Origin: Nitrosophilus kaiyonis
GTDB taxonomy: Bacteria; Campylobacterota; Campylobacteria; Campylobacterales; Nitratiruptoraceae
Length of the DNA stretch: 64,000 nt
NCBI RefSeq assembly: GCF_027943725.1
Contig: NZ_AP025696.1
Coordinates: forward strand, 1,341,501 to 1,405,500
Direction: 5' to 3'
This document shows, piece after piece, positions 2,834 through 63,198 of the stretch; the stretch's first letter is position 1; each line of letters starts with the position of its first letter. The translations under genes were made by a program, and so were the position numbers. The notes under the pieces are model-generated. The model did not search any database. It worked only from the letters and a program-made list of their open reading frames with translations, and was not told the origin of the DNA.

Positions 2834-2858
2834 GGAGTTTGGAGTTTTTTAGTTAAAA

Positions 2859-2938
2859 AGTCAATAGTCATTAAGTCATTAGTCATTAAGTTTATTTTAC
2901 CAATGTCTAATGACTATTGACTAATGTCTAATGATTAA
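2859..2938. repeat. Intergenic degenerate heptamer repeats
   Basis: The stretch is built of AGTCATT/TAATGTC-type units and their reverse complement: tandem AGTCATT copies on the left and CTAATGTC/ACTAATG copies on the right, so it can also fold as an inverted repeat. The right end runs into the minus-strand FmdE-like gene and supplies its stop codon at 2928-2930. Similar units fill eight other gaps in this window. Confidence 0.8.
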
Positions 2939-4277: not shown

Positions 4278-5603
4278 ATGAAAAAAATTACATCTCAAAT
4301 AAAATTCATTGGCGGTGCTTTATCCCTTACAATTATAGCAATTGTGGCTTCTGTTATTTATATAAATCAAAAAAGTAAAAACGATTCTATAGTTATTAAT
4401 ATTGCTGGAAAAGAGAGAATGCTTACTCAAAAAATTAGTAAAGAGATTTTTAGATTAAAAACGGCAAGGATAATAGAGTTAAAAGAGTTAAATGATGCAC
4501 AAAATCTTTTTGAAATAAATTTATACTCTTTATTAAATGGAGATAAAAAAAGAGGTATTTATCCACCTCCTACATTGGAGATAAAAGAGCAGCTTTTAAG
4601 GGTTGAAAAGTTATGGCTCCCTTTTAAAGAAAAAATTGAGATTTTTAAGAAAATTATTTTAAAAATAGAAAATGAAAAAAATTTTGTTTTTGACAATAAT
4701 GATTATCTTTTAAATATATCTGATAAAGTGGTAAAAACTATGGTTAAAACAAATGTTAAAGGATATTATATTGATAAAGCTGGAAGACAAAGAATGCTTA
4801 GTCAAAGAATGATGTATTTTTTACTTTTGTATTTAAACGAATCAGATCCAAGATATTATAGAATATTTTATGAGACGCTTCATCTTTATGATATGACACT
4901 AAAACAGTTTTATAACGATAAAGATTTAATAGAAATTAAAGAGTTAAAAGATATTTTGGAGAAAAATTATAGTTTTTGGAATGAATATATTTTACATGCC
5001 AAAAATCTAATTGAGATGCAAAGTAAATTAAATGATACAGTAGATTATATAAAAGAGTTTAACAATATACTGTTAAATGGAATGGACCAAGCTGTTTCTA
5101 TGTATACAATATATTCAGAAAGACAAAGGACTCTTCTTGAAAATATAGAATATATCCTAGCAATGATAGCAATAGTTATAATTTTTTATTCATTCTTTTT
5201 AATTATAAATATTCAAAAACATTTTGAAGAGTTTATGAAAAAATCAAAATCTCTAATCTCTTTTGATAAAGATGAATCTAAAATATGTGAACATACTGAT
5301 GAATTAACAATAGCATCTAAAAGACTTGAAAATTTTATACAAAAAGTTGATAGAATGATTATAGATGCACAAAATGCAATAAAAACTTCAGAATATCTTA
5401 CTAAAGAGTTAAGTGATGTTAGTGAACTTTTAGAAAAAAATGCCAAAGATATAGATAAAACTCAAAAAAAAGAGTTGGAAAAATATCTTGATACAAGTGA
5501 AGATATAGCAATACAGTCACTTGAAGATTTAGAAAAGAGTGCAAAACTACTGCAAAAACTTCATGAAAATCTTTCTAATATTTTAGAACAAACAAAGAAA
5601 TAG
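4278..5603 (+). CDS. NarX-like nitrate/nitrite receptor with two P-box-like modules and no kinase
   Basis: The product has 441 residues. TM1 lies at about 10-29. A periplasmic NarX-type (PilJ/type IV pili methyl-accepting-like) sensor follows, with a P-box-like motif INIAGKERMLTQKI at about 40-53 and a second copy IDKAGRQRMLSQRM at about 165-178. TM2 lies at about 293-311. The remaining ~130 residues are cytoplasmic and look helical or coiled coil. There is no HAMP-HisKA-HATPase region, no MCP signalling hairpin and no GGDEF domain, and the next gene does not supply one. In the known family the P-box arginine binds nitrate or nitrite. It may signal through the neighbouring Crp-type regulator or a distant kinase; that is inference. 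Confidence 0.75.
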   Translation: MKKITSQIKFIGGALSLTIIAIVASVIYINQKSKNDSIVINIAGKERMLTQKISKEIFRLKTARIIELKELNDAQNLFEINLYSLLNGDKKRGIYPPPTLEIKEQLLRVEKLWLPFKEKIEIFKKIILKIENEKNFVFDNNDYLLNISDKVVKTMVKTNVKGYYIDKAGRQRMLSQRMMYFLLLYLNESDPRYYRIFYETLHLYDMTLKQFYNDKDLIEIKELKDILEKNYSFWNEYILHAKNLIEMQSKLNDTVDYIKEFNNILLNGMDQAVSMYTIYSERQRTLLENIEYILAMIAIVIIFYSFFLIINIQKHFEEFMKKSKSLISFDKDESKICEHTDELTIASKRLENFIQKVDRMIIDAQNAIKTSEYLTKELSDVSELLEKNAKDIDKTQKKELEKYLDTSEDIAIQSLEDLEKSAKLLQKLHENLSNILEQTKK

Positions 5604-5780
5604 AGTCATTAAGTCATTAGACATTAGATATTGGCTGTTTCACTCTTTCATAGCTTATCCATTTTATTTTCTCCCTTTAACTTTTCAATTCAATTAACAT
5701 TATCAATTATTATTAATTCTTACCAATAACTTTATATCTATTATATAACATCAAATGCCAAAATAGTTTTAAGTTTCAAG

Positions 5781-5836
5781 TGCTAATTTCTAATTTCCAA
5801 TGACTAATGTCTAATGTCCAATGTCCGATGTCTAAC
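5781..5836. repeat. Intergenic degenerate heptamer repeats
   Basis: A run of CTAATTTC, CTAATGTC, CAATGTC and CGATGTC units, about 7 bases each, upstream of the nap promoter. A shorter patch of AGTCATT-type units lies at about 5604-5637, directly after the receptor gene. Confidence 0.75.
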
Positions 5837-18767: not shown

Positions 18768-20462
18768 ATGAATAAAATCTTAATTTTTCTTTTATTTATT
18801 TCTTTATCTTTTTCAAAAGAGTTTGATAGCTTCTATATACACTCTTTAGAATCAAAAAGTAATAATAAAATAGATGGTAAAAATCTTTATTTAAAATATT
18901 GTGCACTCTGTCATGGAAAACAAAAAGAGGGTATTTCTGCTCCTCCTTTACTTCCACAATTTTTAAAAAGAAAAAGTGATAAGAAAATATATACAATTAT
19001 AAAAAATTCTCTCCCTCAGACATTAATGCCCAAATTTGACTTTTTAAATGATAACGAAATAAAAGAGATTATAAAATTTTTAAGAAAGCCTCAAAGAGAC
19101 ATAAAATGGAATGAAGCTAATATAATAAATTCATATAAAAAATATAATAACAATAAAAAAGATTTAAATATAAAGGATATCGATAATGTAACTTTAGTTG
19201 TAGAAAGAGGTGCAAATAGAGTATGGATAATGGAAAATGAGAAAATTTTGGATAGATTTGATTTTAGAAATGTTCATGGAGGATTAAAATATACCCTTGA
19301 TGGGAAAAATTTTTATGTCCCTACAAGAGATGGTTGGATAGGTCATTATTCTTTAGAAAATGGGAGATTAGAAGATAAAGTTAGAGCTTGTATAAACTTA
19401 AGAAATGTTAGTCTGAGTCATGATGGAAAATATCTATTTGCAACTTGTTTACTTCCACAAATGGTTGTTGTTTTTGATAGAAAAACATTAAAACCAGTAA
19501 AAATTAAAAAAGTTAATGGGAAAATTAGTGCATTATATGAACTTTATAGTAAAGATGAAGCAATTTTTACTTTTAGAGATAAACCTAAACTTTATAAAGT
19601 AAATACAAAAACATTAAAATTTAAAGAGTATAAACTTGATAAGCCAATCGAAGATTTTTTTATTGATCCATTTGAAGAGTATATTATTGGGACTACTAGG
19701 CATGGAAAAGATTTAAGAGTTTACGATATAAAAACTTTAAAAGAAAAATTTTTCGCATCAATTGAAGGAATGCCTCATCTATTTAGTGCTACATATTGGT
19801 ATAAAGATGGAAAATTTTATTTTGCGACACCTCATTTAAGAAAACCGTATATCACAATTTGGCAGATGTATGATTGGAAACTAATTAAAAAAATTGATGT
19901 AGGAGGAGATGGATTTTTTGTAAAAACACATCCTCAAAGCGATTATCTTTGGGTAGATAATGGCTCAGATAAGCTTGTATTAGTTAATAAAGAAGATTTT
20001 TCTATTAAAAAATTGACTCCTCGAAAAGATAAAAGATACATTCATACCGAATTTAGTGGTGATGGGAAATATGCTTACCTTAGTATTTATGAAAATGATG
20101 GAGACCTTTTAGTCTGGCAAACAGATACATTTAAAGAGATAAAAGATTACAAAGCAGATGTTCCCGTTGGGAAATATAATTTTATTAATAAAAATAGAGT
20201 TTTTTATCCAAGACTATTTGGGCTTAGCATTTTTAAAGAGAAATGTTGGGGATGTCACCATCAGAGTGCTGAAGCTTTTGGACCTCCTTTTAGTAAGATT
20301 GCCAAAAAAAGGAATGAAGGCGAAATGATAAGCCAAATAGTTGATCCAAATCATACTTATAAAGAGTTAGGATATAAAAGAAATTCTATGCCAGCTTTTA
20401 AATTTAATGAAAAAGAGTTAAAATCTATAGTAGATTATATAAAATCATTTAAAGGTAAATAG
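18768..20462 (+). CDS. nirN: NirN/NirF-like d1-propeller protein with two cytochrome c domains
   Basis: Translation from the ATG at 18768, with GGAGGGG upstream, gives 564 residues and a clean Sec signal; an in-frame ATG at 18714 lies inside the leader stem-loop and is rejected. An N-terminal cytochrome c domain has CALCH at 45-49 (Met in TLMPKF). A cd1-type propeller spans about 115-470. A second cytochrome c domain follows, with CWGCH at about 493-497 and Met in NSMPAF. NirN, a dihydro-haem d1 dehydrogenase, normally has only the first haem. The extra C-terminal haem is unusual and could pass electrons on from the last step of d1 synthesis. An alternative is a divergent nitrite reductase, but the nirJ/nirF context favours a biosynthetic role. 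Confidence 0.7.
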   Translation: MNKILIFLLFISLSFSKEFDSFYIHSLESKSNNKIDGKNLYLKYCALCHGKQKEGISAPPLLPQFLKRKSDKKIYTIIKNSLPQTLMPKFDFLNDNEIKEIIKFLRKPQRDIKWNEANIINSYKKYNNNKKDLNIKDIDNVTLVVERGANRVWIMENEKILDRFDFRNVHGGLKYTLDGKNFYVPTRDGWIGHYSLENGRLEDKVRACINLRNVSLSHDGKYLFATCLLPQMVVVFDRKTLKPVKIKKVNGKISALYELYSKDEAIFTFRDKPKLYKVNTKTLKFKEYKLDKPIEDFFIDPFEEYIIGTTRHGKDLRVYDIKTLKEKFFASIEGMPHLFSATYWYKDGKFYFATPHLRKPYITIWQMYDWKLIKKIDVGGDGFFVKTHPQSDYLWVDNGSDKLVLVNKEDFSIKKLTPRKDKRYIHTEFSGDGKYAYLSIYENDGDLLVWQTDTFKEIKDYKADVPVGKYNFINKNRVFYPRLFGLSIFKEKCWGCHHQSAEAFGPPFSKIAKKRNEGEMISQIVDPNHTYKELGYKRNSMPAFKFNEKELKSIVDYIKSFKGK

Positions 20463-21565
20463 TGTTTAGATTATCTAATCTATTAAAATCAACTCTTGAA
20501 AATAAAAAACAAAGAGAGTTAAATGGCTCTATATTAATATGGAATTTTACTAATAGATGCAATCTTTCATGTTTGCACTGTTATAGCAAATCTTCATTAG
20601 ATGAAAAAGATACTTTGACTACACAAGATATCTTAGAAACGATTCCGAAATTAAAAAAAGCTGGGATAAAATTTGTTATTTTTAGTGGAGGTGAGCCATT
20701 AACAAGAAAAGATATCTTTGAAATTGCTCAAGCTTTTAAAGATGAAGGTATTATGACATATCTATCAACTAATGGTTTATATATAAATCCAGGAAATGTA
20801 AAAAAAATCATTGATACTTTTGGATATATAGGAATTAGTATTGATGGTGACGAAAAAACCCACGATAGATTTAGAGGACTTATTGGATCATATAAAAAAT
20901 CATTGCAAGCTATAGATTTAATTCATGAAAATGGCGGGAAAGTTGGTATAAGATTTACCATTACAAAAGAGACAAAAGAGTCATTAATGCATATTTTTGA
21001 TTTAGCAGAAAGTAAAAATATTGATAAAGTATATATTTCTCACCTTGTATATAGTGGAAGAGGACTTGATAATTTAAAAATGGATTTAAATAAGGAAGAA
21101 AGAGTAAAAGCAGTTAACTATATTATAGATAAAGCATTTGAATATTATGATAAAAATATCGATATTGATATAGTTACTGGAAATATGGAGATGGATGCAA
21201 TTTTATTTTTGGATAGATTTTCAAAAAAATATCCAAAAAAAAGTGATGAACTTAAAAATAGATTATTAAAATGGGGCGGAAATAGTGCTGGGAAAAATTT
21301 GTTAAATATTAATAGTGAAGGTGATGTAAAACCTGATCCATTTTTTCCAGTTACAATAGGAAATATATTAAAAAAAGATTTTGAGAAAATTTGGCTTGAT
21401 AAAAACAACGAGCTTTTAAATAAACTAAGAGAGCATCCAAGAAAAATTAAAGGAAAATGTGAAAATTGTGAATGGATTGAAATATGTAATGGAGGTAGTC
21501 GCCCAAGAGCATGGGCTATATATGGAGATCTTTGGCAAGAAGATCCAAGTTGTTATATCAAATAG
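20462..21565 (+). CDS. nirJ: Radical SAM haem d1 biosynthesis protein NirJ
   Basis: The product has 367 residues. The radical SAM CxxxCxxC cluster is Cys33/Cys37/Cys40 (RCNLSCLHCYS). A C-terminal SPASM-like cysteine set (CENCEWIEICNGG and the last Cys in DPSCYIK) indicates an auxiliary Fe-S cluster. NirJ converts the propionates of didecarboxysirohaem to the keto groups of haem d1. The start is GTG at 20462, one base into the preceding stop region and behind AAAGG, so it is co-translated with the NirN-like gene. Confidence 0.92.
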   Translation: MFRLSNLLKSTLENKKQRELNGSILIWNFTNRCNLSCLHCYSKSSLDEKDTLTTQDILETIPKLKKAGIKFVIFSGGEPLTRKDIFEIAQAFKDEGIMTYLSTNGLYINPGNVKKIIDTFGYIGISIDGDEKTHDRFRGLIGSYKKSLQAIDLIHENGGKVGIRFTITKETKESLMHIFDLAESKNIDKVYISHLVYSGRGLDNLKMDLNKEERVKAVNYIIDKAFEYYDKNIDIDIVTGNMEMDAILFLDRFSKKYPKKSDELKNRLLKWGGNSAGKNLLNINSEGDVKPDPFFPVTIGNILKKDFEKIWLDKNNELLNKLREHPRKIKGKCENCEWIEICNGGSRPRAWAIYGDLWQEDPSCYIK

Positions 21566-21567
21566 TT

Positions 21568-21680
21568 ATTAAAGGTGAGTTAGGTGAGTAAGATGAGTGA
21601 GAAAGTGGTTATTAGTTATTGATAAAAAATAGTATTCCAATATACTAATACACCAATAACTAATAACCTATGTCTAATAT
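21568..21680. repeat. Intergenic degenerate heptamer repeats
   Basis: The gap between nirJ and nirF is made of GTGAGTAAG-type units, then GTTATTA, then CCAATATA/CTAATAC/CCAATAA units, all near 7 bases. The order of unit types resembles that in the gaps at 33.9, 43.3 and 60.1 kb. Confidence 0.75.
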
Positions 21681-23851: not shown

Positions 23852-26461
23852 ATGGAAGTTAGTCATATGTTTAAGAAGCTGCTCAGTACTGCTGCGGCTC
23901 TTTGTATGGTTTCAAGTTTTGCTACTGCACAAAGCGAACTTGAAAAAATAATGAAAGAAAGAGGGTTAACCCAAGATGACATTTTAGCAGCTGCTAAGAC
24001 CTATACACCATCTGGTGGTAGAGATAAATATATAGTATTTAGTTCAGGTGGTCAGTCAGGCCAAATAATGGTTTATGGCGTACCATCAATGAGAATTTTG
24101 AAATTTATTGGTGTATTTACTCCAGAGCCTTGGCAAGGCTGGGGATATGACGATGATACCAAAAAAGTTCTAAAAGAAGGTCATTGGTTTGGAAAGCCTA
24201 TAACTTGGGGAGATACGCACCATCCAGCAATTTCTGAAACAAATGGTGTATATGATGGAAAATGGCTTGTAATTAACGACAAAGCTAACCCAAGAATTGC
24301 GGTAATTGATTTAAAAGATTTTGTTACCAAACAAATTGTTGTAAACCCTGTATTTAAATCTGATCATGGTGGTGCTTTTTTTACACCGAATAGTGAATAT
24401 ATTCTTGAAGCTTGCCAATATGGGGCTCCGTATGATCTTGAATACCATCCTATGGAAGAGTATGCTGATGTTTATAGAGGCGGAGTGACATGTTGGAAAT
24501 TTGATCATAAAAATGGAAAAATTTTACCTGATCAATCTTTTACAATTGAGATGCCACCATATATGCAAGATTTAAGTGATGCAGGTAAAGAGATGAGTTA
24601 TGGATGGGGATTTACAAACTCATTTAACTCAGAAATGTATACAGGCGGTATTGAAAAAGGTTTACCTCCATTTGAAGCTGGTATGAGTAGAAATGATACA
24701 GACTATCTTCATGTATATAACTGGAGAAAACTTGCTGAACTTGCAAAAGATCCTAAAAATGTAAAAGTTATAAACGGAATGAAGGTTGTTCCTATTGAAG
24801 TTGCAGTTAAAAATGATTGCCTATTTTTAATTCCTGAGCCAAAATCACCGCATGGTGTTGATGTTAGTCCTGATGGTAGATATATAGTTGTGTGTGGTAA
24901 GCTTGATACACATGCTACTGTATATGATTTCAAAAAGATCATGAAAGCTATTAAAAATCATGATTTTGTTGGAAAAGACCCATATGGTATTCCAATTATT
25001 GATATGAAAAAAGCAATGCATTGTCAAGCTGAACTTGGTCTTGGGCCACTTCATAACCAATATGGTCCTAAATGGAAAACTGAAGGCGAAATCTATACAT
25101 CACTATATGTTGATAGCCAAGTTGTAAAATGGAGCTATTTAACTTGTGAAGTAAAAGATAGAGTAAATGTAAACTATAACATTGGTCACCTATGTGGAAT
25201 GGAAGGTAAAACTAGAGACCCACAAGGAGAATATATAATTGCACTTAATAAACTTGCAATTGATAGATTTAATCCAATTGGACCTCTTCATCCACAAAAC
25301 CACCAATTAATTGATATTAGTGGTAAAAAAATGAAACTTCTTTATGATATGCCAGTACCTTTAGGAGAACCTCACCAAGCTGTAGCTATTAGAGCAAGCA
25401 AACTTCATCCAGAAGTTAGATATCCTATGGGTACAAATCCATTTACAGGCAAAATTCATAGAGGTAAAACTCTAGCTGGACAAGAGAAAATTGTTAGAAA
25501 AGGAAATCATGTATATGTTTATGGTACTCTTGTTAGAAGTCATATAAACCCTGAACATGTAACAGTAAATAAAGGAGATATTGTAACATTCTATCTAACA
25601 AACCTTGAAAGAGCAGAAGATGAAACACATGGATTTACTGTTGACTGGTACAATGTTCATGCATCATTAGAGCCAGGAAAAACTGTTGCAGTTACTTTTA
25701 AAGCGGATCGTGAAGGTGTATTCCCATACTATTGTACAGAGTTCTGTTCTGCACTTCACTTAGAGATGATGGGATATTTGCTTGTAAAAGATCCAAATAA
25801 AAAATATAAATCTGTAAGAAAAATCAAACTCAAAAAAATGAGCAAAGAACAGTTAATGAAAGAGTACAAAAAAACAGTTGCTCTTAATGAGGCTACCAAA
25901 AAAGTTATTCAAAGTGTAGTTAAATTCTTAAAAGAAAATCACTATGAAAAATATCCTGTTGTAAAACAGCTTGTAGATGATGCAATGGATCAGTTCAACA
26001 AAGTTCCTGCTGAAGAGAAAAAAGCTGAAGAAGCACTTAAAAAAGGTGATATTGATACAGCTATTAACTTCCAATATCAAGCATGGCAATATCTTGTAAA
26101 AACTGCTGATGTTGGTATCAGAGCAAAAGATTTACTTGTTAAAAAACTTGCAACACCAATGAGTGAAGCTGCTAAGAGAGGTGAAGCTGCATTTGCTGAA
26201 GGTGGATGTAATGGTTGTCACGTTATTGGTAAAGTTAGCTCTGGACCAGACTTAGTTGGTGTTCTAAAAAGACATGAGAACGGTGAAAAATGGGTAGCTG
26301 AATTTATCAAAAACCCATCAAGCAAATATAATGATCCATATGTAAAAGCTATGATTGATTACTTCAATCTAAGAATGCCAAATCAACATATGAGTGATCA
26401 AGAGATAAAAGATATCATCGAATACCTAAAATGGGTAGATGAAAACGCTCATCTCTTCTAA
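23852..26461 (+). CDS. nosZ: Nitrous oxide reductase NosZ, clade II, with fused cytochrome c (cNosZ)
   Basis: The product has 869 residues and reduces N2O to N2 in the periplasm. The signal peptide is Sec-type (AAALCMVSSFATA) with no twin arginine, as in clade II enzymes. A seven-bladed propeller carries the CuZ histidines (DTHHPA, SPHGVD, LHNQYG, EPHQAV among others). The cupredoxin domain with the CuA motif YCTEFCSALHLEMMGY lies at about residues 626-645. A C-terminal cytochrome c domain has CNGCH at 786-790. The extra ~200 residues over ordinary NosZ match the Wolinella/Campylobacterota form. A GGAGG site precedes the ATG and a strong terminator follows. Confidence 0.97.
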   Translation: MEVSHMFKKLLSTAAALCMVSSFATAQSELEKIMKERGLTQDDILAAAKTYTPSGGRDKYIVFSSGGQSGQIMVYGVPSMRILKFIGVFTPEPWQGWGYDDDTKKVLKEGHWFGKPITWGDTHHPAISETNGVYDGKWLVINDKANPRIAVIDLKDFVTKQIVVNPVFKSDHGGAFFTPNSEYILEACQYGAPYDLEYHPMEEYADVYRGGVTCWKFDHKNGKILPDQSFTIEMPPYMQDLSDAGKEMSYGWGFTNSFNSEMYTGGIEKGLPPFEAGMSRNDTDYLHVYNWRKLAELAKDPKNVKVINGMKVVPIEVAVKNDCLFLIPEPKSPHGVDVSPDGRYIVVCGKLDTHATVYDFKKIMKAIKNHDFVGKDPYGIPIIDMKKAMHCQAELGLGPLHNQYGPKWKTEGEIYTSLYVDSQVVKWSYLTCEVKDRVNVNYNIGHLCGMEGKTRDPQGEYIIALNKLAIDRFNPIGPLHPQNHQLIDISGKKMKLLYDMPVPLGEPHQAVAIRASKLHPEVRYPMGTNPFTGKIHRGKTLAGQEKIVRKGNHVYVYGTLVRSHINPEHVTVNKGDIVTFYLTNLERAEDETHGFTVDWYNVHASLEPGKTVAVTFKADREGVFPYYCTEFCSALHLEMMGYLLVKDPNKKYKSVRKIKLKKMSKEQLMKEYKKTVALNEATKKVIQSVVKFLKENHYEKYPVVKQLVDDAMDQFNKVPAEEKKAEEALKKGDIDTAINFQYQAWQYLVKTADVGIRAKDLLVKKLATPMSEAAKRGEAAFAEGGCNGCHVIGKVSSGPDLVGVLKRHENGEKWVAEFIKNPSSKYNDPYVKAMIDYFNLRMPNQHMSDQEIKDIIEYLKWVDENAHLF

Positions 26462-26466
26462 TTAAT

Positions 26467-26494
26467 ATAAAAGAGGGATCTTCCCCTCTTTTAT
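26467..26494 (+). terminator. Terminator after nosZ
   Basis: ATAAAAGAGGG-ATCTTC-CCCTCTTTTAT forms an 11-base-pair stem with T-rich 3' side, directly after the nosZ stop. It separates nosZ from the accessory nos genes, which have their own box at 26620-26633. Confidence 0.85.
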
Positions 26495-26619
26495 AATCAA
26501 TCATAATTTATATTTAATAATGTTATTTTTTAATTTTTTATGACAAAAAAATAACAAACTATAATATTCTCTTAATAAATATAAATATATCAAATAATAA
26601 ATATAAATATAAATTATGA

Positions 26620-26633
26620 TTGATTAAAATCAA
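26620..26633 (+). promoter_or_regulatory. FNR/NnrR-type box of the nos accessory operon
   Basis: TTGATTAAAATCAA is a perfect FNR consensus (TTGAT-N4-ATCAA). TAAAAT at 26656-26661 has its centre 32 bases downstream. It lies 54 bases before the chosen nosB start. Confidence 0.8.
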
Positions 26634-26686
26634 TGTATAGTTGTAAAAAAGAGAGTAAAATAAAAAAAATATTAAAAGGAATAAAT

Positions 26687-27484
26687 ATGAACAGTTCAAG
26701 TGTAAAATATAGAGTGTTTGCACTTATTGCATTAGCAATTTTGCTGTATTGGTTTGTAATTCCAGCAGTTATTACTCACGATGTTCCAGATTTAGCAAAG
26801 GCTGGTAAAGCTGATAAAATACCTTCAATTGCATATAAAGTATGGGATTATTATCAAAAAGGAAGATATGTAAGTCCAAATACTCCTCCAGAAGCATTAG
26901 ATAAAAACAAAAATCCAATTTTAAAGAAAATGATAGAATATAATGCAGAGATAGGTGTGGCAAGTGCGCCAATATGGTATGTTTCATTAGAAGCACCAAA
27001 TTATCCTAAAGATGCTTTTCCTGAGGGTATTCCGGTTTATTATCATTTTGATGGATTTAGCGGTGATGTCCATGAAATGAATACTATCAATCACTTTATA
27101 GGTATGGATCCAATGGAAAGAGGCGCTCCATATTTGCGTGCTATTGCTCCATATGTATTAGTTTTACTTGCATTTGCATATGTACTCTTTATCTTATATG
27201 ATTGGAAATGGTTAAATTATATAATGTGGATTGCTGTAGCACTTCCATTAATATTTTTAGGTTTTTATGCATATTGGTTATATTGGTTTGGCCATCATAT
27301 GCATGATTGGGGTGCATTTAAGATTAAGCCATTTATGCCAACCGTGTTTGGAGATGGAAAAGTTGCTCAATTTACAACTCATTCATATCCAACAATTGGT
27401 TTTTGGCTTTTAATTGCTATTAGTGTATTTACACTTTTGGCAATAATTTCAAAAAATAAATATTTAAAGAGTAAAGCTGCATAA
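26687..27484 (+). CDS. nosB: Membrane protein NosB
   Basis: Translation from the ATG at 26687 (AAAAGGA upstream) gives 265 residues; an earlier in-frame ATG at 26633 lies in the regulatory box and is rejected. There is one N-terminal helix, a periplasmic region of about 120 residues, and three to four C-terminal helices with His-rich segments (WFGHHMHDWGAF). Its position directly after nosZ matches NosB of Wolinella and other clade II nos clusters, a membrane protein of undefined role in N2O respiration. The name rests mainly on synteny. Confidence 0.7.
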   Translation: MNSSSVKYRVFALIALAILLYWFVIPAVITHDVPDLAKAGKADKIPSIAYKVWDYYQKGRYVSPNTPPEALDKNKNPILKKMIEYNAEIGVASAPIWYVSLEAPNYPKDAFPEGIPVYYHFDGFSGDVHEMNTINHFIGMDPMERGAPYLRAIAPYVLVLLAFAYVLFILYDWKWLNYIMWIAVALPLIFLGFYAYWLYWFGHHMHDWGAFKIKPFMPTVFGDGKVAQFTTHSYPTIGFWLLIAISVFTLLAIISKNKYLKSKAA

Positions 27485-28710
27485 TGAAAAGGCTGATTTT
27501 GCTTTTAGTTTTTATGACATTACCAATGTTTGCTATGACACTGCAAGAGGTGATAGATAAAGCAAAAGCAGGATCAAAAATAGAATTGCCAGAGGGAGTT
27601 TTTGAAGGGAATATTGTCATCAATAAACCATTAATGATTGTAGGTAAAGGAGAAAAAACTGTAATCAAGGGAGATGGAAAAGGTACAGTTGTCAAAATTA
27701 GAAGTTCAAATGTTACCATAAAAAATTTAACTATTGTAAATAGTGGTAAGGAACATGAGAAAGTAGATGCAGGCATTTCTATAAAAGATGCCAAATTTTG
27801 TGAAGTTAATAATTGTAGCATTAAAAATTGTCTTTTTGGAATAGACTTGCAAAATGTACATAACTCTAAAATTATCGGAAATTATATTACATCAAAACCT
27901 TTTCCATTAGGAATAAGAGGTGATGGTATAAGACTTTGGTATAGCAATGATAATATTTTAAGAAAAAATTATCTATATAAAAGTAGAGATTTTGTTGTAT
28001 GGTATAGCCATGGAAATTTAATTGAAGAAAACAGAGGAGAATATGGCAGATATTCGCTTCATTTTATGTATGCAGGCAAAAATATAGTTAAAAAAAATGT
28101 ATATAAACATAATAGTGTTGGAATATTTTTTATGTATTCAAGAGATACAGAAGCTTATGAAAATGTTGTTATTAGTTCTTTAGGAACTACTGGCATTGGA
28201 ATAGGATTAAAAGATGCTTCAAATTTTATTATAAAAAATAATACAATACTTTATTGTGCTAAAGGATTATATATAGATAGATCCCCATTCCAGCCAGATG
28301 AAAAAAATTTTATCGAAAACAACAGCATACTTTATAATTCAATAGGTATACATTTTCATTCATTAAGTACAAATAATATTATTAAAAGAAACATATTTAA
28401 AGGTAATATGGAAAATGTTTATGATGATTCTGGACAAGGAAGAATTCATTCAGTAATGAACACTTGGAGTGAGAATTATTGGGATGATTATCAAGGTTTT
28501 GACAAAGATGGAGATGGCATAGGTGATATTCCATATAATCTTTATTATTATGCAGATAAGTTGTGGCTATTAAATCCTAATATAAGATTTTTTTATGGAT
28601 CACCTGTTATATCGATTTTGAATTTTTTATATAAATTGGCACCGATTTCAGAACCTATAAAACTATTAACTGATCCAAAGCCACTTATGCATGAAGGGGA
28701 GGTATCATGA
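27484..28710 (+). CDS. nosD: Copper-processing periplasmic protein NosD
   Basis: The product has 408 residues with a Sec signal (LILLLVFMTLPMFA) and a long right-handed parallel beta-helix made of repeated NNxI/KNN-type coils (carbohydrate-binding/NosD repeats), ending with a Ca-like DKDGDGIGD loop. NosD with NosF and NosY matures the CuZ centre of NosZ. It overlaps the nosB stop by one base and the nosG start by four, so translation is coupled. Confidence 0.93.
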   Translation: MKRLILLLVFMTLPMFAMTLQEVIDKAKAGSKIELPEGVFEGNIVINKPLMIVGKGEKTVIKGDGKGTVVKIRSSNVTIKNLTIVNSGKEHEKVDAGISIKDAKFCEVNNCSIKNCLFGIDLQNVHNSKIIGNYITSKPFPLGIRGDGIRLWYSNDNILRKNYLYKSRDFVVWYSHGNLIEENRGEYGRYSLHFMYAGKNIVKKNVYKHNSVGIFFMYSRDTEAYENVVISSLGTTGIGIGLKDASNFIIKNNTILYCAKGLYIDRSPFQPDEKNFIENNSILYNSIGIHFHSLSTNNIIKRNIFKGNMENVYDDSGQGRIHSVMNTWSENYWDDYQGFDKDGDGIGDIPYNLYYYADKLWLLNPNIRFFYGSPVISILNFLYKLAPISEPIKLLTDPKPLMHEGEVS

Positions 28711-29492
28711 CACCACAAGAGAAAAAAAGAAGAGATTTTATTAAAAAAATGGCTGGTCTAGGTGTATTGGGATTGGCTGCAGCAGCTGGTATTTATGGTG
28801 CAAAATATTATAAGCATCATGAATTAAGATTAAGACCACCTGGAGCAGTACCTGAAGATGAGTTTTTAGCCCTTTGTATCAAATGTGGCCAATGTCTTCA
28901 AGTATGTCCATATGATTCTATATTTTTAGAAGGAGTTGATGGAAAAGCTGGTGTTGGCACAGCTTATATTGATCCTCAAAAAAGGGGATGTTATTTATGT
29001 AAAGCCTTTCCTTGTATATTGGCTTGTCCAAGTGGTGCTTTGGATCATGAAAAAGATGATATTAAATTAGTGCATATGGGGATGGCTGTTATTGTAAATG
29101 AGAATGCATGTTTGGCACTTCATAATAAAAAAGTTCCAGATAGTGCAATTGATGCTATATATGATCATTCGCCTGCTTTGACTAAAAAAGAGATAAAAAA
29201 TAGAAAAATAGAGGATTTACCAAATCCTAGTGAAAAAAGAGAATTACAAGTAGAATTACTGAAAAAACTTGAAAAATTTAGAGGTAAAGATTGTACAATC
29301 TGTGCTGATTTGTGTCCTTATCATCCAGATCCTTCACTTGCTATAGGAATGGTTGCAAAAAATGGTGGATATCTTCCAGAAATTAGAGAAAAATGTGTAG
29401 GATGCGGTGCTTGTGTAGAATTGTGTCCAACAGATGTATTAAAAATTGTCCCTAGAGCTACTTATGAGCAAATATATGGGAAAAAGGCTTAA
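28707..29492 (+). CDS. nosG: Periplasmic polyferredoxin NosG (NapG-like)
   Basis: The product has 261 residues with a Tat signal (KRRDFIKKMAG, then LGVLGLAAAAG) and several [4Fe-4S] motifs, such as CIKCGQCLQVCP, CYLCKAFPCILACP, CTICADLCP and CVGCGACVELCP. It is the NapG paralogue of nos clusters in Campylobacterota and other clade II organisms, thought to pass menaquinol electrons from NosH towards NosC/NosZ. The start overlaps nosD (ATGA). Confidence 0.9.
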   Translation: MTPQEKKRRDFIKKMAGLGVLGLAAAAGIYGAKYYKHHELRLRPPGAVPEDEFLALCIKCGQCLQVCPYDSIFLEGVDGKAGVGTAYIDPQKRGCYLCKAFPCILACPSGALDHEKDDIKLVHMGMAVIVNENACLALHNKKVPDSAIDAIYDHSPALTKKEIKNRKIEDLPNPSEKRELQVELLKKLEKFRGKDCTICADLCPYHPDPSLAIGMVAKNGGYLPEIREKCVGCGACVELCPTDVLKIVPRATYEQIYGKKA

Positions 29493-29494
29493 TT

Positions 29495-30055
29495 ATGAAA
29501 TTTAGTTATTGGTTATTGGTTATCAGTATATTAGTTATATTTTCTGGATGTGAGAAGAAAGAAGAAAAAAAAGAGGTTGCTGCTAAACCTTCTCAGATAA
29601 AAATTACTGAGGGTGTAGTTAAAGAGAAAAAGGCTCAAGAAAAAGAGGTAGATAAAGGACAATTTTATTACTCTTATAAAGAAGCGAAAAAAGAAGAGAT
29701 TGAAGATGAGGGAAAATATACAAGACTTGGGGCATATAGACATGTTTTAAATAATTATCAAAAAGTGCAAATTTCACTGCTTGCAAATAAATTAAGCAAA
29801 GATTTTTTGATTTACTGTTCAGCTTGTCATGATGATTATGCAAATGGAATAATTGGACCATCACTACTAGATAAAAGTGGAGATTATATATATAAGCAAC
29901 TGCAAGATTTTAAAAGCGGTAAGCGAAAAAATGTTTTGATGGTCCAACTTGTTAGACGTTTAGATGATAAAAAACTGAAAGCTTTAGCAGATGAGATTGC
30001 AGAATTTAATAAAAAAGTAAAAAAAATAAAAGAAAATTTAAAGGATAAAAAATGA
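29495..30055 (+). CDS. nosC1: Cytochrome c NosC1, lipoprotein
   Basis: This 186-residue protein has a short signal peptide ending in a lipobox-like IFSGC, a Lys/Glu-rich linker, and a C-terminal cytochrome c domain with CSACH near residue 109. It is expected to carry electrons between NosGH and NosZ. Its C-terminal half (DFKSGKRKN and after) closely matches NosC2, so the two are tandem duplicates. The signal-peptide coding DNA (29504-29538) is built of the same heptamer repeats that fill the intergenic gaps. Confidence 0.85.
   Translation: MKFSYWLLVISILVIFSGCEKKEEKKEVAAKPSQIKITEGVVKEKKAQEKEVDKGQFYYSYKEAKKEEIEDEGKYTRLGAYRHVLNNYQKVQISLLANKLSKDFLIYCSACHDDYANGIIGPSLLDKSGDYIYKQLQDFKSGKRKNVLMVQLVRRLDDKKLKALADEIAEFNKKVKKIKENLKDKK
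29504..29538 (+). repeat. Heptamer repeats inside the NosC1 signal peptide
   Basis: Units AGTTATT, GGTTATT, GGTTATC, AGTATAT and TAGTTAT run in tandem with a 7-base period and encode the hydrophobic core of the NosC1 signal peptide. The non-coding gap at 63.1 kb contains nearly the same units. Confidence 0.75.
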
Positions 30056-30543
30056 TTAGACATATCATTGCTATTATAGCTGGTGCTTTAACAGTTGCTG
30101 CGATTGTTTATATGGCAAATTTAGATAAAGAAGCACAAAAATTTCAAAAAATAAAAGAGATAATAGAAAAATCAAAATTAGAAGTACCTGTTTCTAAACA
30201 AAAAGTTGAACAAGCACAACCTCAAAAAGAAGAAGAGAGTGAAGAAGAGAAGAAATTAAAGGTTTTAAAAGAGAAAGCTGGAAGAATGAGTGCTTTTGAA
30301 GTTAGTCCACTTTATAGAAGAAATTGTGCTTCGTGTCATGGTATAAATGGTGAAGGAGCAGTAGGACCTAAACTTGTAGGAAAAACTAAAGAAGATGTTT
30401 TAAATGCATTGAAAGATTTTAAAAGCGGTAAGAGAAAAAATTATGTAATGTTTGGTCTTTTAAATAATATGAAAGATGAAGATTTAGAGAGTTTGGCAAC
30501 TGAAATTGGTACTTTTGAACAAAAACTTAAAGCTTCAGAATAA
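30052..30543 (+). CDS. nosC2: Cytochrome c NosC2
   Basis: The product has 163 residues: an N-terminal membrane anchor or signal (HIIAIIAGALTVAAIVYMA), an acidic/Lys-rich linker and a cytochrome c domain with CASCH near residue 96. It overlaps nosC1 by four bases and shares the DFKSGKRKN region with it, also at the DNA level, so the pair arose by duplication. It probably passes electrons from the quinol-oxidising NosGH module to cNosZ. Confidence 0.85.
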   Translation: MIRHIIAIIAGALTVAAIVYMANLDKEAQKFQKIKEIIEKSKLEVPVSKQKVEQAQPQKEEESEEEKKLKVLKEKAGRMSAFEVSPLYRRNCASCHGINGEGAVGPKLVGKTKEDVLNALKDFKSGKRKNYVMFGLLNNMKDEDLESLATEIGTFEQKLKASE

Positions 30544-30551
30544 TAAACAGT

Positions 30552-30601
30552 AGGTGATCTTAGTAGTTAGCTACTATCACCTCCTAAATTTTAAAAGGAG
30601 G
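30552..30601 (+). promoter_or_regulatory. Possible RNA switch before nosH
   Basis: Two overlapping stems are possible. The first pairs AGGTGAT (30552-30558) with ATCACCT (30576-30582) and has an inner AGTAG/CTACT. The second pairs CCTCCT (30580-30585) with AGGAGG (30596-30601), the nosH ribosome site. They share 30580-30582, so they exclude each other, as in a translational switch. Confidence 0.4.
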
Positions 30602-30606
30602 GGAAA

Positions 30607-31518
30607 TTGGATAGATATAATTGGAGTGTAAAAGAACTTGTAAATGCACCTATTTTATCAACACTTTATTATAGAACTAAACAAGGAAAAATTAGGCCTA
30701 CATGGCGTTTTTGGAGATGGCTTAGTGTAATAGTTATAAATCTAGCCTTTTTTCTTTCATATTTTGTTGACATTCAATTTTTAGAAGGAACTTTAACAGG
30801 TTCAAGGCTTCTTGGTTTTCATCTAATCGATCCTTTTGCAGCATTAGAGATTTTAGCATCAGAACATCATATTCATACAAATATAATTATTGGAACCGCA
30901 ACTATAGTTGGTTTTTATTTTTTAGTTGGAGGAAAGGCATTTTGTGGATGGGTTTGTCCATATGGACTCCTTAGTGAAATAGGTGAATATTTTCATCAAA
31001 AACTAGTAAATAAAAGAATAATAAAAGAGAGAAGATTTGACCCTAGAGTTAGATATGTTTTTTGGGTAATTTTTCTTGCAGCTGCTGCTATTGATGGATA
31101 TTTGGTTTTTGAAATTATAAATCCTGTTGGAATTTTAAGTAGATTTATTGTTTATGGTTGGAGTTTGGCAATTGTTTGGGTTGTTGTTATTTTAGCTATT
31201 GAGATTTTTTTCTCAAGACGTGCATGGTGTAAATATGTTTGTCCTATAGGTACTACTTATAGTTTTATAGGTTGGATAAGTCCAATGAAAGTTCAATGGG
31301 ATATGGAAAAGTGTGACCATTGTGCGGCCTGTTTTATAGCATGTCCTGAAGAGCATGTATTAGAGAGATTTAAATCTAAATATGACAAAGAACGTGAAGA
31401 AAAAGGTATAACAAAAGAGTTTGTTAAAGATGGTGATTGTATAATGTGTGCAAGATGTTTTGATGTTTGTCATGAAGATGCATATAACTTTGAATTTAGG
31501 TTAAAGAACTTAGTATGA
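30607..31518 (+). CDS. nosH: Membrane ferredoxin NosH (NapH-like)
   Basis: The product has 303 residues with four to five transmembrane helices, two CxxxCP motifs (GWVCPYGLL and KYVCPIGTT) and two C-terminal [4Fe-4S] motifs (CDHCAACFIACP, CIMCARCFDVC). It is the quinol-oxidising partner of NosG. The start appears to be TTG at 30607 behind a very strong AAAAGGAGGGG. The candidate RNA switch at 30552-30601 covers this ribosome site. Its end overlaps nosF by four bases. Confidence 0.9.
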   Translation: MDRYNWSVKELVNAPILSTLYYRTKQGKIRPTWRFWRWLSVIVINLAFFLSYFVDIQFLEGTLTGSRLLGFHLIDPFAALEILASEHHIHTNIIIGTATIVGFYFLVGGKAFCGWVCPYGLLSEIGEYFHQKLVNKRIIKERRFDPRVRYVFWVIFLAAAAIDGYLVFEIINPVGILSRFIVYGWSLAIVWVVVILAIEIFFSRRAWCKYVCPIGTTYSFIGWISPMKVQWDMEKCDHCAACFIACPEEHVLERFKSKYDKEREEKGITKEFVKDGDCIMCARCFDVCHEDAYNFEFRLKNLV

Positions 31519-32153
31519 TAGAGATAAAAAATGCATACAAAAAATTTTTTGATGTTTTTGTTTTAGATAATGTTAATTTAACTATAAATGATGGTGACAA
31601 AATTGCATTAATGGGGCCAAATGGTGCTGGAAAAACTACCCTTGTTAGATCAATTTTGGGTTTTTATCATTTAACTAAAGGTGAAATAAAAGTAGAGGGA
31701 TTTGACCCTATAAAAAATAGAACAAAAGTACTAAATAATATCAGTTTTATACCTCAAACCCCACCTCCTATAAAGCTTAATATAAAAGAGTTACTTGAAT
31801 TTGTTGCCAAAAGTTCACATATTGAAATTAATAAAATTAAAGAAGAGTCTTCAAAAATGGATCTTGATATTGAGAAAAATTTAAATAAGCCTTTTTTTAA
31901 GCTTAGTGGAGGAATGAAACAAAAACTATTAATTGCAATAGCTTTAGCAAGAAATAGTAAGATTTTAATTTTTGATGAGCCTACAGCAAATCTTGATCCT
32001 AAAGCAAGAGAAAAATTTTATAATCTTTTAGAATCAATTGATAAAAATTGCTCTACTATTTATATTACTCATAGACTTGAAGAGATAGAGGGTTTGGTTA
32101 ATAGAAAAATTTATATGGATTTAGGAAAAGTGGTTGAGGATGAAAGGATATAA
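31515..32153 (+). CDS. nosF: ABC transporter ATPase NosF
   Basis: This 212-residue ATPase has Walker A GPNGAGKTT (about 34-42), signature LSGGMKQKL and Walker B LIFDEPTANLDP. With NosY it forms an ABC exporter that, together with NosD, supplies a sulfur species or acts on copper loading for CuZ assembly. The gene overlaps nosH (ATGA) and runs about 14-20 bases into nosL. Its stop codon abuts the first heptamer of the repeat that encodes the NosL signal peptide. Confidence 0.93.
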   Translation: MIEIKNAYKKFFDVFVLDNVNLTINDGDKIALMGPNGAGKTTLVRSILGFYHLTKGEIKVEGFDPIKNRTKVLNNISFIPQTPPPIKLNIKELLEFVAKSSHIEINKIKEESSKMDLDIEKNLNKPFFKLSGGMKQKLLIAIALARNSKILIFDEPTANLDPKAREKFYNLLESIDKNCSTIYITHRLEEIEGLVNRKIYMDLGKVVEDERI

Positions 32154-32595
32154 GTCATTAGTCATTAGTCATTTGATATTTTTATTTTTTATCTCTTTGG
32201 CTTTTTTAGGATGTGAGAAAAAAGATTATACAAAAGAGCCAGCTACAATGCACTGGGATAGAGATATGTGTGAACGGTGCAAAATGGCAATAAGTGAGAG
32301 AAAATTTGCTGTTCAAGCTATAGATGAAAATGGTAAAGTATATAAATTTGACGATATTGGTTGCTTAATCCTTTGGCAAAAAAAAGAACATCCTGAAATA
32401 CATTTTAAAAAAATATGGATAACTGATGCAAAAAGTGGTGAATGGATAGATGCAAAAGAAGCAGAGTATACAAGAGATTATATAACACCGATGGGATATG
32501 GATTTGGAGCGCACAAAAAAGGGACTGCTCCAAAAAATAAAAAAATATATTCATTTGATGATGTTAAAAAAATAATAGAGAAAATAGGAAGATAA
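32140..32595 (+). CDS. nosL: Copper chaperone lipoprotein NosL
   Basis: This protein of about 151 residues has a signal peptide ending in a lipobox-like LAFLGC and the NosL copper motif DRDMCERCKMAISERKFAVQ (family Cu(I) chaperone delivering copper to NosZ). The start is ATG at 32140 or TTG at 32134. The first part of the signal peptide is encoded by three perfect AGTCATT heptamers (32153-32173), the same unit that fills intergenic gaps. The gene lies between nosF and nosY, whereas Wolinella has nosL after nosY. Confidence 0.9.
   Translation: MKGYKSLVISHLIFLFFISLAFLGCEKKDYTKEPATMHWDRDMCERCKMAISERKFAVQAIDENGKVYKFDDIGCLILWQKKEHPEIHFKKIWITDAKSGEWIDAKEAEYTRDYITPMGYGFGAHKKGTAPKNKKIYSFDDVKKIIEKIGR
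32153..32173 (+). repeat. Three perfect AGTCATT heptamers inside the NosL signal peptide
   Basis: AGTCATT occurs three times without mismatch. It begins on the last base of the nosF stop codon and is read in the nosL frame as S-L-V-I-S-H. The same heptamer makes up the gap at 2.9 kb. Confidence 0.85.
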
Positions 32596-33422
32596 TGAAA
32601 AATCTTTTTTTAATTGCAAAACTTGATATCGCTGAATCAGCAAGAAGTAAATGGTTTTTTGTCTATTTACTTGTTTTTGGTGGTTTAATGGCACTTTTTT
32701 TCATAACTGGAATAACAGATAGTGTTGTTATGGGTTTTACTGGACTTAGCCGCCTTCTTTTAATCTATATGCAAGTAACAATTGTAATTTTGCCTATTTT
32801 TATTTTAATTACCACTGTAAAATCAATTTCGGTAGATAGAGAAAGTGCAATTTTAGAATATATGCTCTCTTTTCCTATATCTTTAAGAGATTACTATTGG
32901 GGTAAAATGGTTGGAAGATTTACAGTTGTATTTTTTCCAGTACTATTAGCTCTAATTTTAGGTATTGGTTGGGGAATATTTAAAGGTGGAGAGCTTCCAT
33001 GGAATATGCTTTTTATTTATAGCGCACTTCTTTTTTCATTGTGTGCAGTTTTTTTAGGAATAGCTTTTTTTATCTCTACTATTGTCAAATCTCATGATGT
33101 TGCTTTAGGAGCAAGTTTTGTTGTTTGGATAACACTTTTGGCTTTTATTGATATTGCTTTAATTGGACTTATGCTTCAAAATAGATTTAATGATAATTTT
33201 ATAATTGCTCTATCTCTTTTAAATCCAATGGAAGTGTTTAGAGTAGGAGCAATAAGTCTTTTTGACCCTGAATTAACAGTAATGGGACCGGTAGCCTATT
33301 TTTTACTTGATACATTTGGTCAAAAGCTTTTTATTACATATTCGATTGTTTATCCTCTATTTTTAGGAATATTCTTTTCACTTTTAGGTTTTTACTTTTT
33401 CAAAAAAAGAGATCTATTATAG
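32595..33422 (+). CDS. nosY: ABC transporter permease NosY
   Basis: The product has 275 residues with six predicted helices and the NosY pattern (start KNLFLIAKLDIAESARSKWF, and the ESAILEYMLSFPISLRDYYWGK loop that contacts the ATPase). It is the membrane part of the NosFY exporter needed for CuZ maturation. It overlaps the nosL stop by one base. Confidence 0.92.
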   Translation: MKNLFLIAKLDIAESARSKWFFVYLLVFGGLMALFFITGITDSVVMGFTGLSRLLLIYMQVTIVILPIFILITTVKSISVDRESAILEYMLSFPISLRDYYWGKMVGRFTVVFFPVLLALILGIGWGIFKGGELPWNMLFIYSALLFSLCAVFLGIAFFISTIVKSHDVALGASFVVWITLLAFIDIALIGLMLQNRFNDNFIIALSLLNPMEVFRVGAISLFDPELTVMGPVAYFLLDTFGQKLFITYSIVYPLFLGIFFSLLGFYFFKKRDLL

Positions 33423-33430
33423 GAGGGGTT

Positions 33431-33901
33431 ATGAAAAAGTTTTTATTTGTAATATTTTTTAGTATAGTTTATCTTTTGGCTGATACAAATTCTACTAAAA
33501 TATTAGATCCTGTTTATCATATTGATGTAAATAAATATCCAAAATTCCAAGCAAAAATTGTTTTAGCAAATGGTAAAGAGATACTTTTTTGTTGTCCTAA
33601 ATCTATGTTTAATGTCTACTTAAGACCTTCCGATTATCCTGAATATCATATAAAAGGTGAACTTGATTTTAAAAAGATTTTAGTTAAAGATTATTTGAGT
33701 GGAGAGTGGATAAAGGCTGAAGGCGCTTTATATGTTTTTGGAAGCAAACTTCAAGGACCAAAAGGTGATGATTTGATTCCTGTTAGAAACAGAGATGCTT
33801 TGAATATTTTTAGATTAAAATATGGAGGAAGCAAAGTTTTAACTTTTCCAGAAATCATACATAAAGGAATGGGACTTATAAAATATTTAGATATGCCGTA
33901 A
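33431..33901 (+). CDS. Second NosL-like periplasmic protein
   Basis: This 156-residue protein has a Sec signal (KKFLFVIFFSIVYLLA) and no lipobox. The core resembles NosL (YLSGEWIKAEGALYVFGS and LKYGG), but the metal motif is FCCPKSM in place of MCERCKM. It ends the nos operon. It may be a second copper chaperone, or take part in copper storage; the vicinal CC-x2-x-M motif is compatible with Cu(I). The assignment rests on similarity of pattern and on position. Confidence 0.6.
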   Translation: MKKFLFVIFFSIVYLLADTNSTKILDPVYHIDVNKYPKFQAKIVLANGKEILFCCPKSMFNVYLRPSDYPEYHIKGELDFKKILVKDYLSGEWIKAEGALYVFGSKLQGPKGDDLIPVRNRDALNIFRLKYGGSKVLTFPEIIHKGMGLIKYLDMP

Positions 33902-34112
33902 ATAGTCATTAGTCATTGATAATTAGTAATTGGTGTATTGGTTAATAGAATTAAGATTTAAGATTTAAGTGAGTAGTTTATGAGCGGGGAAGCTGTGAGG
34001 GAGTGAAGCGGAACAGTGGAATAGGAATATAGCGGAATAGTAAATTATGAGTGAAGCGCCCAATTCCAATTCCTAATTCCCGATGTCTAATGTCCAATGA
34101 CTAATGTCAAAC
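33902..34112. repeat. Intergenic degenerate repeats (211 bases)
   Basis: The gap after the nos operon holds AGTCATT units, then GTAATTGGT, AAGATTTAAG, GTGAGTAG, GGAATAG(C/T) (8-base) units, and finally CCAATTC, CTAATTCC, TAATGTC and CAATGAC units. No reading frame or terminator is evident. The same succession of unit types appears at 43.3 and 60.1 kb. Confidence 0.75.
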
Positions 34113-34115
34113 TTT

Positions 34116-34496
34116 TTACTTTGAGAAGAAAAAAGTTTCTACCCACTTTTTCTCTTTTTCATTTTTTAGCTCTATCTTTTTAACAATTTTTCCATTATCG
34201 TCTAATACTAAGAGTGTATTATTTTCGAGTTTTAGATGAGATTTACCCCATTTTTTTAGTAAATTATCAAAAGCTAAAAAAACTTTTTCATTTGCAATAT
34301 CTAAATCTTTTCCTGTTCTTTTATCTACAATATCAAGCCCACCAAACTCTTTTTGGATTTTATAAGGAAAGTAGGGCATTATGGCATTATATACTCTAAT
34401 ATTTTTCTTTTGTGGCATATTTGTTATAAGTGCTATTGCACTTAAGAAAATAAATATAAATAAGAATGCAAAAATTATTCTTTTACTAAACATCAT
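34116..34496 (-). CDS. Membrane-anchored periplasmic protein, unknown
   Basis: The product has 126 residues: an N-terminal membrane anchor (about 5-26), then a charged, probably periplasmic domain with DNGKIVKKIEL near the end. It overlaps the precorrin-2 dehydrogenase gene by 11 bases on the same strand, so it is the second gene of that pair. I recognise no family. It may be linked to sirohaem/haem d1 synthesis only by position. Confidence 0.6.
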   Translation of the reverse strand: MMFSKRIIFAFLFIFIFLSAIALITNMPQKKNIRVYNAIMPYFPYKIQKEFGGLDIVDKRTGKDLDIANEKVFLAFDNLLKKWGKSHLKLENNTLLVLDDNGKIVKKIELKNEKEKKWVETFFFSK

Positions 34497-36517: not shown

Positions 36518-36655
36518 TAGAAAGTAAGAAAGTTAGATAGTGATAGAGTAAGAAAGTGAGAAGGATAAGTAAAGAGAGGAAGCAGTGAAGTAATTAATTT
36601 CATATTCCCAATATACCAATAACCAATATACTAATTACAAATGTCAAATGTCTTT
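36518..36655. repeat. Intergenic degenerate heptamer repeats
   Basis: GTAAGAAA, GTTAGATA and GTGAGAA units are followed by CCCAATATA, CCAATAA, CCAATATA and CTAATTA units, and by CAAATGT near the end. It lies between two convergent genes, and no gene or clear terminator is visible. Confidence 0.7.
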
Positions 36656-43261: not shown

Positions 43262-43431
43262 GTGAGTGGGGTGAGTAAGTTAGTTAAGAGTTTATAGTGG
43301 ATTAGTGGAATAGAGGCGTAGCGGGATAGTGGAGAAAATGTTAAGGTTGAAGGATAAAAGTAAAAGGGTGAAGGAAAAAAATTAATTCCCAATTCCCAAT
43401 GACCAATGTCTAATGTCCAATGTCAAATTTA
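43262..43431. repeat. Degenerate repeats separating the two parts of NrdD
   Basis: GTGAGTGG/GTGAGTAAG units are followed by GTGGAATAG, GCGGGATAG and GTTGAAGG units. Then come AATTCCC, CAATGACC, CAATGTC, TAATGTC and CAATGTC units. The block fills the space between the NrdD stop and the ribosome site of the glycyl-radical gene. Confidence 0.8.
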
Positions 43432-43446
43432 CAAAAAGGAGACAAA

Positions 43447-60055: not shown

Positions 60056-60247
60056 GTTAAGAGCTAAGAATTAAGAATTAAGTGGGTAGAAAGTTGATTA
60101 GTGGAATAGGGCATAGTGGAATAGTGGATAAGGTTGAAGGTTGAAGGTAGAAAGTAGAAAGTAGAAGGTAGAAGGATTTAGTGATAGCTAAAAACTAAAC
60201 ACTAATTCCAAATTCCTAATTACCAATGTCCAATGTCAATTGTCAAA
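60056..60247. repeat. Intergenic degenerate repeats (about 190 bases)
   Basis: The succession is AAGAATTA, GTGGAATAG, GTTGAAGG and GTAGAAA(G) tandem units, then CTAATTCC, AAATTCC, TAATTACC, AATGTCC and AATGTC units. It is nearly the same layout as the block between nrdD and its glycyl-radical gene. No gene is seen. Confidence 0.75.
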
Positions 60248-63062: not shown

Positions 63063-63188
63063 AAAATTTGGACATTTGGTTATTAGTATATTGGTTATTG
63101 GTATATTGGGGATTATGAATATTACTTTTACTAAATCCTAAATCTATTTCCTTACCTCCAATAACTAATAACCAATATACCAATTACC
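63063..63188. repeat. Intergenic degenerate heptamer repeats
   Basis: TTGGTTATTAGTATA and TTGGTTATTGGTATA units occur at the left, then ATAACTAATAACCAATATACCAATTACC on the right as their reverse complement, so the gap can form a long imperfect hairpin. The units nearly match those inside the NosC1 signal-peptide sequence. Confidence 0.75.
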
Positions 63189-63198
63189 ACTTTTAATT

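Follow-up and report, generated by a model that had tools for sequence, protein, structure and literature searches.

In two lipoprotein genes of a nos operon, NosL and NosC1, part of the signal peptide is encoded by tandem heptamers of a family that otherwise lies mostly between genes. We consider it probable (roughly two chances in three) that these arrays, which hug the edges of intergenic gaps, ran into the next gene at junctions without a gap and were tolerated there by the lipoprotein signal peptides. The sequence and position of the arrays, their polarity, their rarity in coding DNA and the presence of arrays at one shared junction in three genomes were observed directly. The two arrays and the genes around them are located as follows in the window, by which the whole 64,000-nt stretch of analysed DNA is meant:

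29490..29492, plus strand: stop of the NapG-like ferredoxin gene that lies upstream (28707-29492), from sequence and family match
29495..30055, plus strand: NosC1 gene, c-type cytochrome-like lipoprotein (ORF, lipobox FSGC)
29504..29538, plus strand: array of GGTTATT/AGTATAT-type heptamers within the NosC1 signal peptide, 19.5 bits
31515..32153, plus strand: NosF-like ABC ATPase gene, stop TAA at 32151-32153
32140..32595, plus strand: NosL-like lipoprotein gene, ATG at 32140, with a 14-nt overlap with the end of nosF
32153..32173, plus strand: AGTCATT x3 in the NosL signal peptide, 30.6 bits, rank 1 of 1,754 N-termini
32174..32180, plus strand: degenerate fourth unit TGATATT (profile segment 32146-32180)

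The operon (window 23852-33901) belongs to clade II and comprises a Sec-dependent NosZ, NosD, NapG- and NapH-like ferredoxins, two cytochrome-like proteins, a NosF-like ABC ATPase, a NosL-like lipoprotein, an ABC-2 permease and a second NosL. This second NosL-family protein (33431-33901) ends the operon and scored 54.2 bits against Pfam NosL, versus 23.1 bits, slightly below the cut-off of 24, for the NosL at 32140..32595. NosC1 homologues were present in 29 of the relatives searched. The genome of the window (G000) is a single contig of 1.77 Mb; the window has a GC content of 29%, and its only Rfam matches were two tRNAs. The closest named genomes by NosL include Nitratiruptor MAGs, and the nos genes clustered, with moderate tree support, with Nitratiruptor-like genomes (genus g3) and not with the genome's own congeners. 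Their position next to a different genus of the same family is suggestive of horizontal transfer of the operon.

NosL is the stronger of the two cases. Its array is in frame inside MKGYKSLVISHLIFLFFISLAFLGC and begins on the final base of TAA, the NosF stop codon, which in turn lies across NosL codons 4-5. The repeat-made part of the protein, SLVISH, lies between the n-region and the hydrophobic core; the core itself, LIFLFFISLAFLG, follows the three perfect copies, with only its first residues overlapping the degenerate fourth unit. At 25 aa, the signal peptide is no longer than in the array-free relatives G007-G009. A downstream NosL start, with the array as 5' UTR, was rejected given the GAGG upstream of the ATG at 32140 and the conservation of the n-region (MKGYK/MRGFK) in relatives.

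The significance of both matches was assessed using a three-unit heptamer model built from the intergenic arrays and scored on the first 90 nt of 1,754 called genes. Only NosL (30.6 bits) and NosC1 (19.5 bits, rank 2) exceeded 12 bits, the next 5' end reaching 11.2 bits, and the search of the proteome for repeat-encoded signal peptides suggested by the first-pass annotation returned these two alone. Codon shuffling of the 381 hydrophobic N-termini produced, per genome, 0.1 sequences that reached 12 bits and none that reached 14 bits, and no gene-interior window scored 12 bits or more. Since none of the shuffles attained 14 bits, against 30.6 and 19.5 for the two genes, both matches exceed chance, for NosL beyond reasonable doubt. 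The heptamers and reading frames earlier reported in the two signal peptides are as the first-pass annotation gave them.

The NosC1 array reads AGTTATT GGTTATT GGTTATC AGTATAT TAGTTAT, in frame within MKFSYWLLVISILVIFSGC, and holds no perfect unit copies. The gene starts 2 nt after the ferredoxin stop codon and the array 11 nt after the same stop, and most of the h-region (SYWLLVISILV) is spelled by GGTTATT-type units. When the 35-nt DNA was compared with the genome, 39 sites (self counted) matched at 25 or more of 35 positions, the best of them mostly intergenic and some in the specific GGTTATT-GGTATATT order, while shuffled queries gave 0-4. With the residues fixed, synonymous recoding attained an equal score in 4.9% of trials, and the evidence is therefore that of peptide and DNA jointly. 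The same figure favors the idea that NosL is real and NosC1 a coincidence, an AT-rich, LLVI-rich signal peptide resembling the repeat, as do the two-unit look-alike in NosL of G007/G008 (12.6 bits) and the length of the NosC1 signal peptide, 19 codons as in G006 and in G008, without the change expected of an insertion. We nevertheless regard a coincidence as unlikely, given that no codon shuffle of any hydrophobic N-terminus attained 14 bits, that the genome matches are numerous, the best of them mostly intergenic, and include the specific unit order, and that none of the 27 further NosC1 homologues read as DNA has an array or comes close (next best score −1.9 bits).

Across the genome, the degenerate heptamer RG[T/A/G][C/A/T]ATT forms ∼190 arrays. 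A refined ungapped profile counted 191 arrays of at least three units, as against 5 in a reversed-genome control, and 168/191 are wholly intergenic. Seventeen overrun the 3' ends of genes in sense, leaving tails such as SLVISH followed by a stop, and short C-terminal tails account for most in-gene overlaps apart from the N-terminal ones; at the threshold of a three-unit array, NosL is the only N-terminus with one. Placement follows a polarity rule, with plus-strand arrays at the left edge of a gap and minus-strand arrays at the right in 174 of 181 cases, irrespective of how the flanking genes are oriented, such that RGTCATT reads inward from the gap edge (binomial p ∼1e-42). Arrays on the stop side (69/181) begin a median of 0 nt from the stop codon, and those on the start side (112), all in a single orientation upstream of the ribosome-binding site, end a median of 20 nt before the start; gene starts were taken from a simple in-house caller and individual distances may be off, though the polarity pattern is too strong to depend on simple gene calls. 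Inverted pairs within 250 nt are of the +/− kind in 26 cases and of the −/+ kind in none. Elsewhere in the window, arrays are found at these positions:

2858..2891, plus strand: intergenic array, left edge of a convergent gap
2895..2936, minus strand: inverted partner of 2858..2891 on the right edge of that gap, into the stop of a minus-strand gene
5612..5632, plus strand: array directly after the stop of gene 4278-5603
5785..5833, minus strand: start-side array in the gap that also holds 5612..5632
21600..21620, plus strand: array after the stop of gene 20462-21565
21655..21675, minus strand: inverted partner of 21600..21620, just before the next gene start
33897..33931, plus strand: array at the stop of the final nos gene (33431-33901)
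34068..34109, minus strand: inverted partner of 33897..33931, stop side of minus-strand gene 34116-34496
43384..43432, minus strand: array just before the gene start at 43447
63076..63109, plus strand: GGTTATT/AGTATATT array of the kind matching NosC1
63158..63189, minus strand: inverted partner of 63076..63109

The first-pass annotation had placed the same units in the gaps near 2.9 and 63.1 kb, and the family was indeed present at 2.86–2.94 kb and 63.08–63.19 kb, in inverted pairs. The gaps at 60080-60190 and 36519-36562 hold other purine-rich tandem words of 7–8 nt (AAGGTAG, AGAAAGTA) that are not of the RGTCATT kind.

The array-bearing gaps look like mosaics of degenerate 7–9-nt word families (AGTGGATAGTGATAG, GGAATAGGGGCATAG, GAAGGTTGAAGG, GAGTTAAGAATTAAG) inside heptamer arrays, and in G000 the units vary by distance from the gene edge, with AGTCATT/AGACATT outside and AGGAATT/GGGAATT towards the gap interior. 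Alignments of at least 60 nt link the interiors of 68 of 146 gaps. Often situated between two heptamer arrays is an intergenic element of ∼180–200 nt (GAGCGAGGGCAAAGCGAAGCTTT...GCATACGAACAGCTGG...), present in ∼25 near-full-length copies in G000, including those at chromosome positions 1683213-1683417, 1019420-1019626, 1184346-1184552 and 1579338-1579544, outside the window. Among its predicted pairs, 15 of 42 have changed on both sides and 96% of cells pair; a search of Rfam gave no match.

The polarity was replicated in 0.8 Mb of G024, a genome of another family with 56% GC, where 28 of 29 arrays obeyed the rule and the unit is GGTCATT, compared with AGTCATT in G000. Tandem AGTCATT was found 65 times in G000 and 0 times in G024, and tandem GGTCATT 5 and 62 times, respectively, the G024 counts being those of its 0.8 Mb. 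Arrays of AGTCATT/GGTCATT are sporadic in distribution, with 204 matches in G000, 0 to 17 in four congeners, 150 in G024 and 64 in G045.

The DNA encoding the signal peptide was read in 25 further homologues of NosL and in the 27 of NosC1, and in none was the same DNA found; its presence in relatives is what the first-pass annotation had named as refuting its claim, and the claim survived this check. Two of the 25 NosL homologues, from G006 and G024, carry an array, in both cases after the NosF stop. In G006 the units AGATATT GGACAGT AGACATT AGATATT GGATAAT encode MREFRYWTVDIRYWII..., which against the array-free G019 (MREYRYWMYL) resembles an expansion of 7 residues, or 21 nt. The NosL signal peptide of G024, whose nos region is known from loci separate from its 0.8-Mb array count, is ∼27 codons longer than usual, and its insert consists of a GC hairpin and then GGTCACC GGTCACT GGTCACT GGTCATT. 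The arrays at the NosF/NosL junction match the unit type of their own genome (AGAYATT in G006), and trees place array-free genomes between the three that bear them. Based on these unit types and the array-free genomes in between, the simplest reading is that arrays were probably acquired three separate times, in G000, G006 and G024; a shared origin of the G000 and G006 arrays is possible. Among 80 named loci, no NosL N-terminus had an array, the best lag-7 score there being 7.5, versus 10.5–18 for G006, G000 and G024. That a single junction bears arrays in three genomes, in units particular to each, suggests that the thing that recurs is the site just behind a stop codon and not a sequence.

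The explanation that we favor begins with the placement of arrays, presumably by insertion or local duplication, at the edges of gaps and directed inward from the neighboring gene, usually either at its stop codon or just before its ribosome-binding site. The NosF/NosL overlap and the ferredoxin/NosC1 junction leave no such gap, and since NosL starts across the NosF stop and NosC1 2 nt behind one, a stop-hugging array would fall within the first codons of the next gene. The n- and h-regions of a lipoprotein signal peptide should accept many uncharged, fairly hydrophobic sequences, so that an in-frame array free of stops could be kept there, while intrusion elsewhere would spoil the protein and be removed by selection. 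Of all N-terminal sites, signal peptides seem to be the only kind in which a stop-hugging repeat is tolerated. The arrays would then be near neutral for export, and NosL and NosC1 are presumably still exported. Pure AGTCATT arrays contain TAG once per seven codons, which limits a coding array of this unit to about three copies, exactly the case of NosL; G-starting units and the GGTTATT kind avoid TAG. Against pure tolerance, two matches in one operon represent more clustering than 381 hydrophobic N-termini would predict.

Tolerance nonetheless fits the data better than recruitment, in which hydrophobic residues supplied by the repeat replaced or strengthened a signal peptide and were kept for better targeting. 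The first-pass annotation had proposed something similar, that the repeat donates ready-made membrane-targeting sequence, and this was borne out insofar as repeats encode part of both signal peptides and GGTTATT units suit NosC1, where the repeat-spelled h-region makes recruitment possible; furthermore, all units in NosL and NosC1 are of the more hydrophobic RGTYATY kind, and NosL carries arrays in three genomes. The general form of the claim did not hold. Array peptides cannot be called unusually hydrophobic, as the stop-free sense translations of all arrays had a mean hydropathy of 0.52 compared with 0.47 for shuffled arrays, and the recurrent TAG and the mostly non-repeat core of NosL also count against it. 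In addition, the lipoprotein signal peptides of relatives without the array are perfectly good, and the repeat goes unused in every other of the 381 hydrophobic N-termini, such that we consider recruitment as the general explanation rather improbable. Lastly, gain or loss of a 7-nt unit would shift the frame and introduce a stop within ∼10–20 codons in either gene, so that the repeat could act as a contingency switch turning NosL or NosC1 off, but phase variation of this sort is very improbable given that NosL has only three perfect copies and NosC1 has none, which is short for frequent slippage, and that almost no other gene admits arrays.

As a variant of intergenic heptamer repeats, the feature is ordinary in kind, and the parts worth following are the polarity rule and the arrays at the NosF/NosL junction of three genomes. 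A broader proposal, which we put forward only tentatively and with the odds somewhat against it, is that distant Campylobacterota share a repeat system directed to gene edges, strictly polar where gaps begin and end but built of different units, that it repeatedly enters coding DNA at overlapping junctions with signal peptides as landing pads, and that it has reached NosF/NosL independently three times. If true, some of the N-terminal variety among exported proteins would derive from repeats. The ∼190 arrays, N-terminal only in two signal peptides, amount to a clean natural experiment on where a genome admits repeats into proteins. The polarity rule, which holds at 29% and at 56% GC, makes ideas on how intergenic heptamers spread testable, as any mechanism put forward has to involve either recognition of gene ends or filtering by them.

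The short tandemly repeated repetitive (STRR) heptamers of heterocystous cyanobacteria are, like the arrays described here, tandem heptamers that are intergenic and sporadic in distribution. A search of plasmids for similar arrays gave no match, although a low-complexity filter may have hidden one, and no report of heptamer-encoded lipoprotein signal peptides was found in the open-licence literature. Direct repeats of the heptamer TAACTGA are known from Beggiatoaceae, Cyanobacteria and Bacteroidetes (MacGregor 2015, PMC4679880) and share with the G000 arrays their short tandem heptamers, mostly intergenic location, sporadic occurrence between relatives and orientation bias near start codons. 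Both are tolerated in ORFs mainly at the ends (for TAACTGA, the N-terminus of a corrinoid ABC permease is named; PMC4679880), and in both one orientation reads as a hydrophobic-looking heptad, LSVISYQ for TAACTGA. The G000 arrays differ in their degenerate units, in lying upstream of the ribosome-binding site on the start side, where TAACTGA repeats lie 1 nt from the start, and in their large mirrored stop-side set, 69/181 compared with the 12 of 170 sets listed towards a stop codon for TAACTGA (PMC4679880). That paper describes no signal peptide case, and tandem TAACTGA itself was absent from G000 and from the 0.8 Mb of G024. The Rickettsia palindromic elements, of 105–146 bp with terminal inverted repeats, occur in 19 reading frames of conserved proteins (PMC2229807). 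In contrast to such long palindromes, the G000 repeat is a 7-nt tandem unit at a junction of overlapping genes, and in NosL and NosC1 it forms direct repeats of 21–35 nt that lack inverted arms, unlike the G024 NosL insert with its hairpin. The two systems are nevertheless alike in being intergenic repeats that are also fused and tolerated in frame inside protein genes (PMC2229807).
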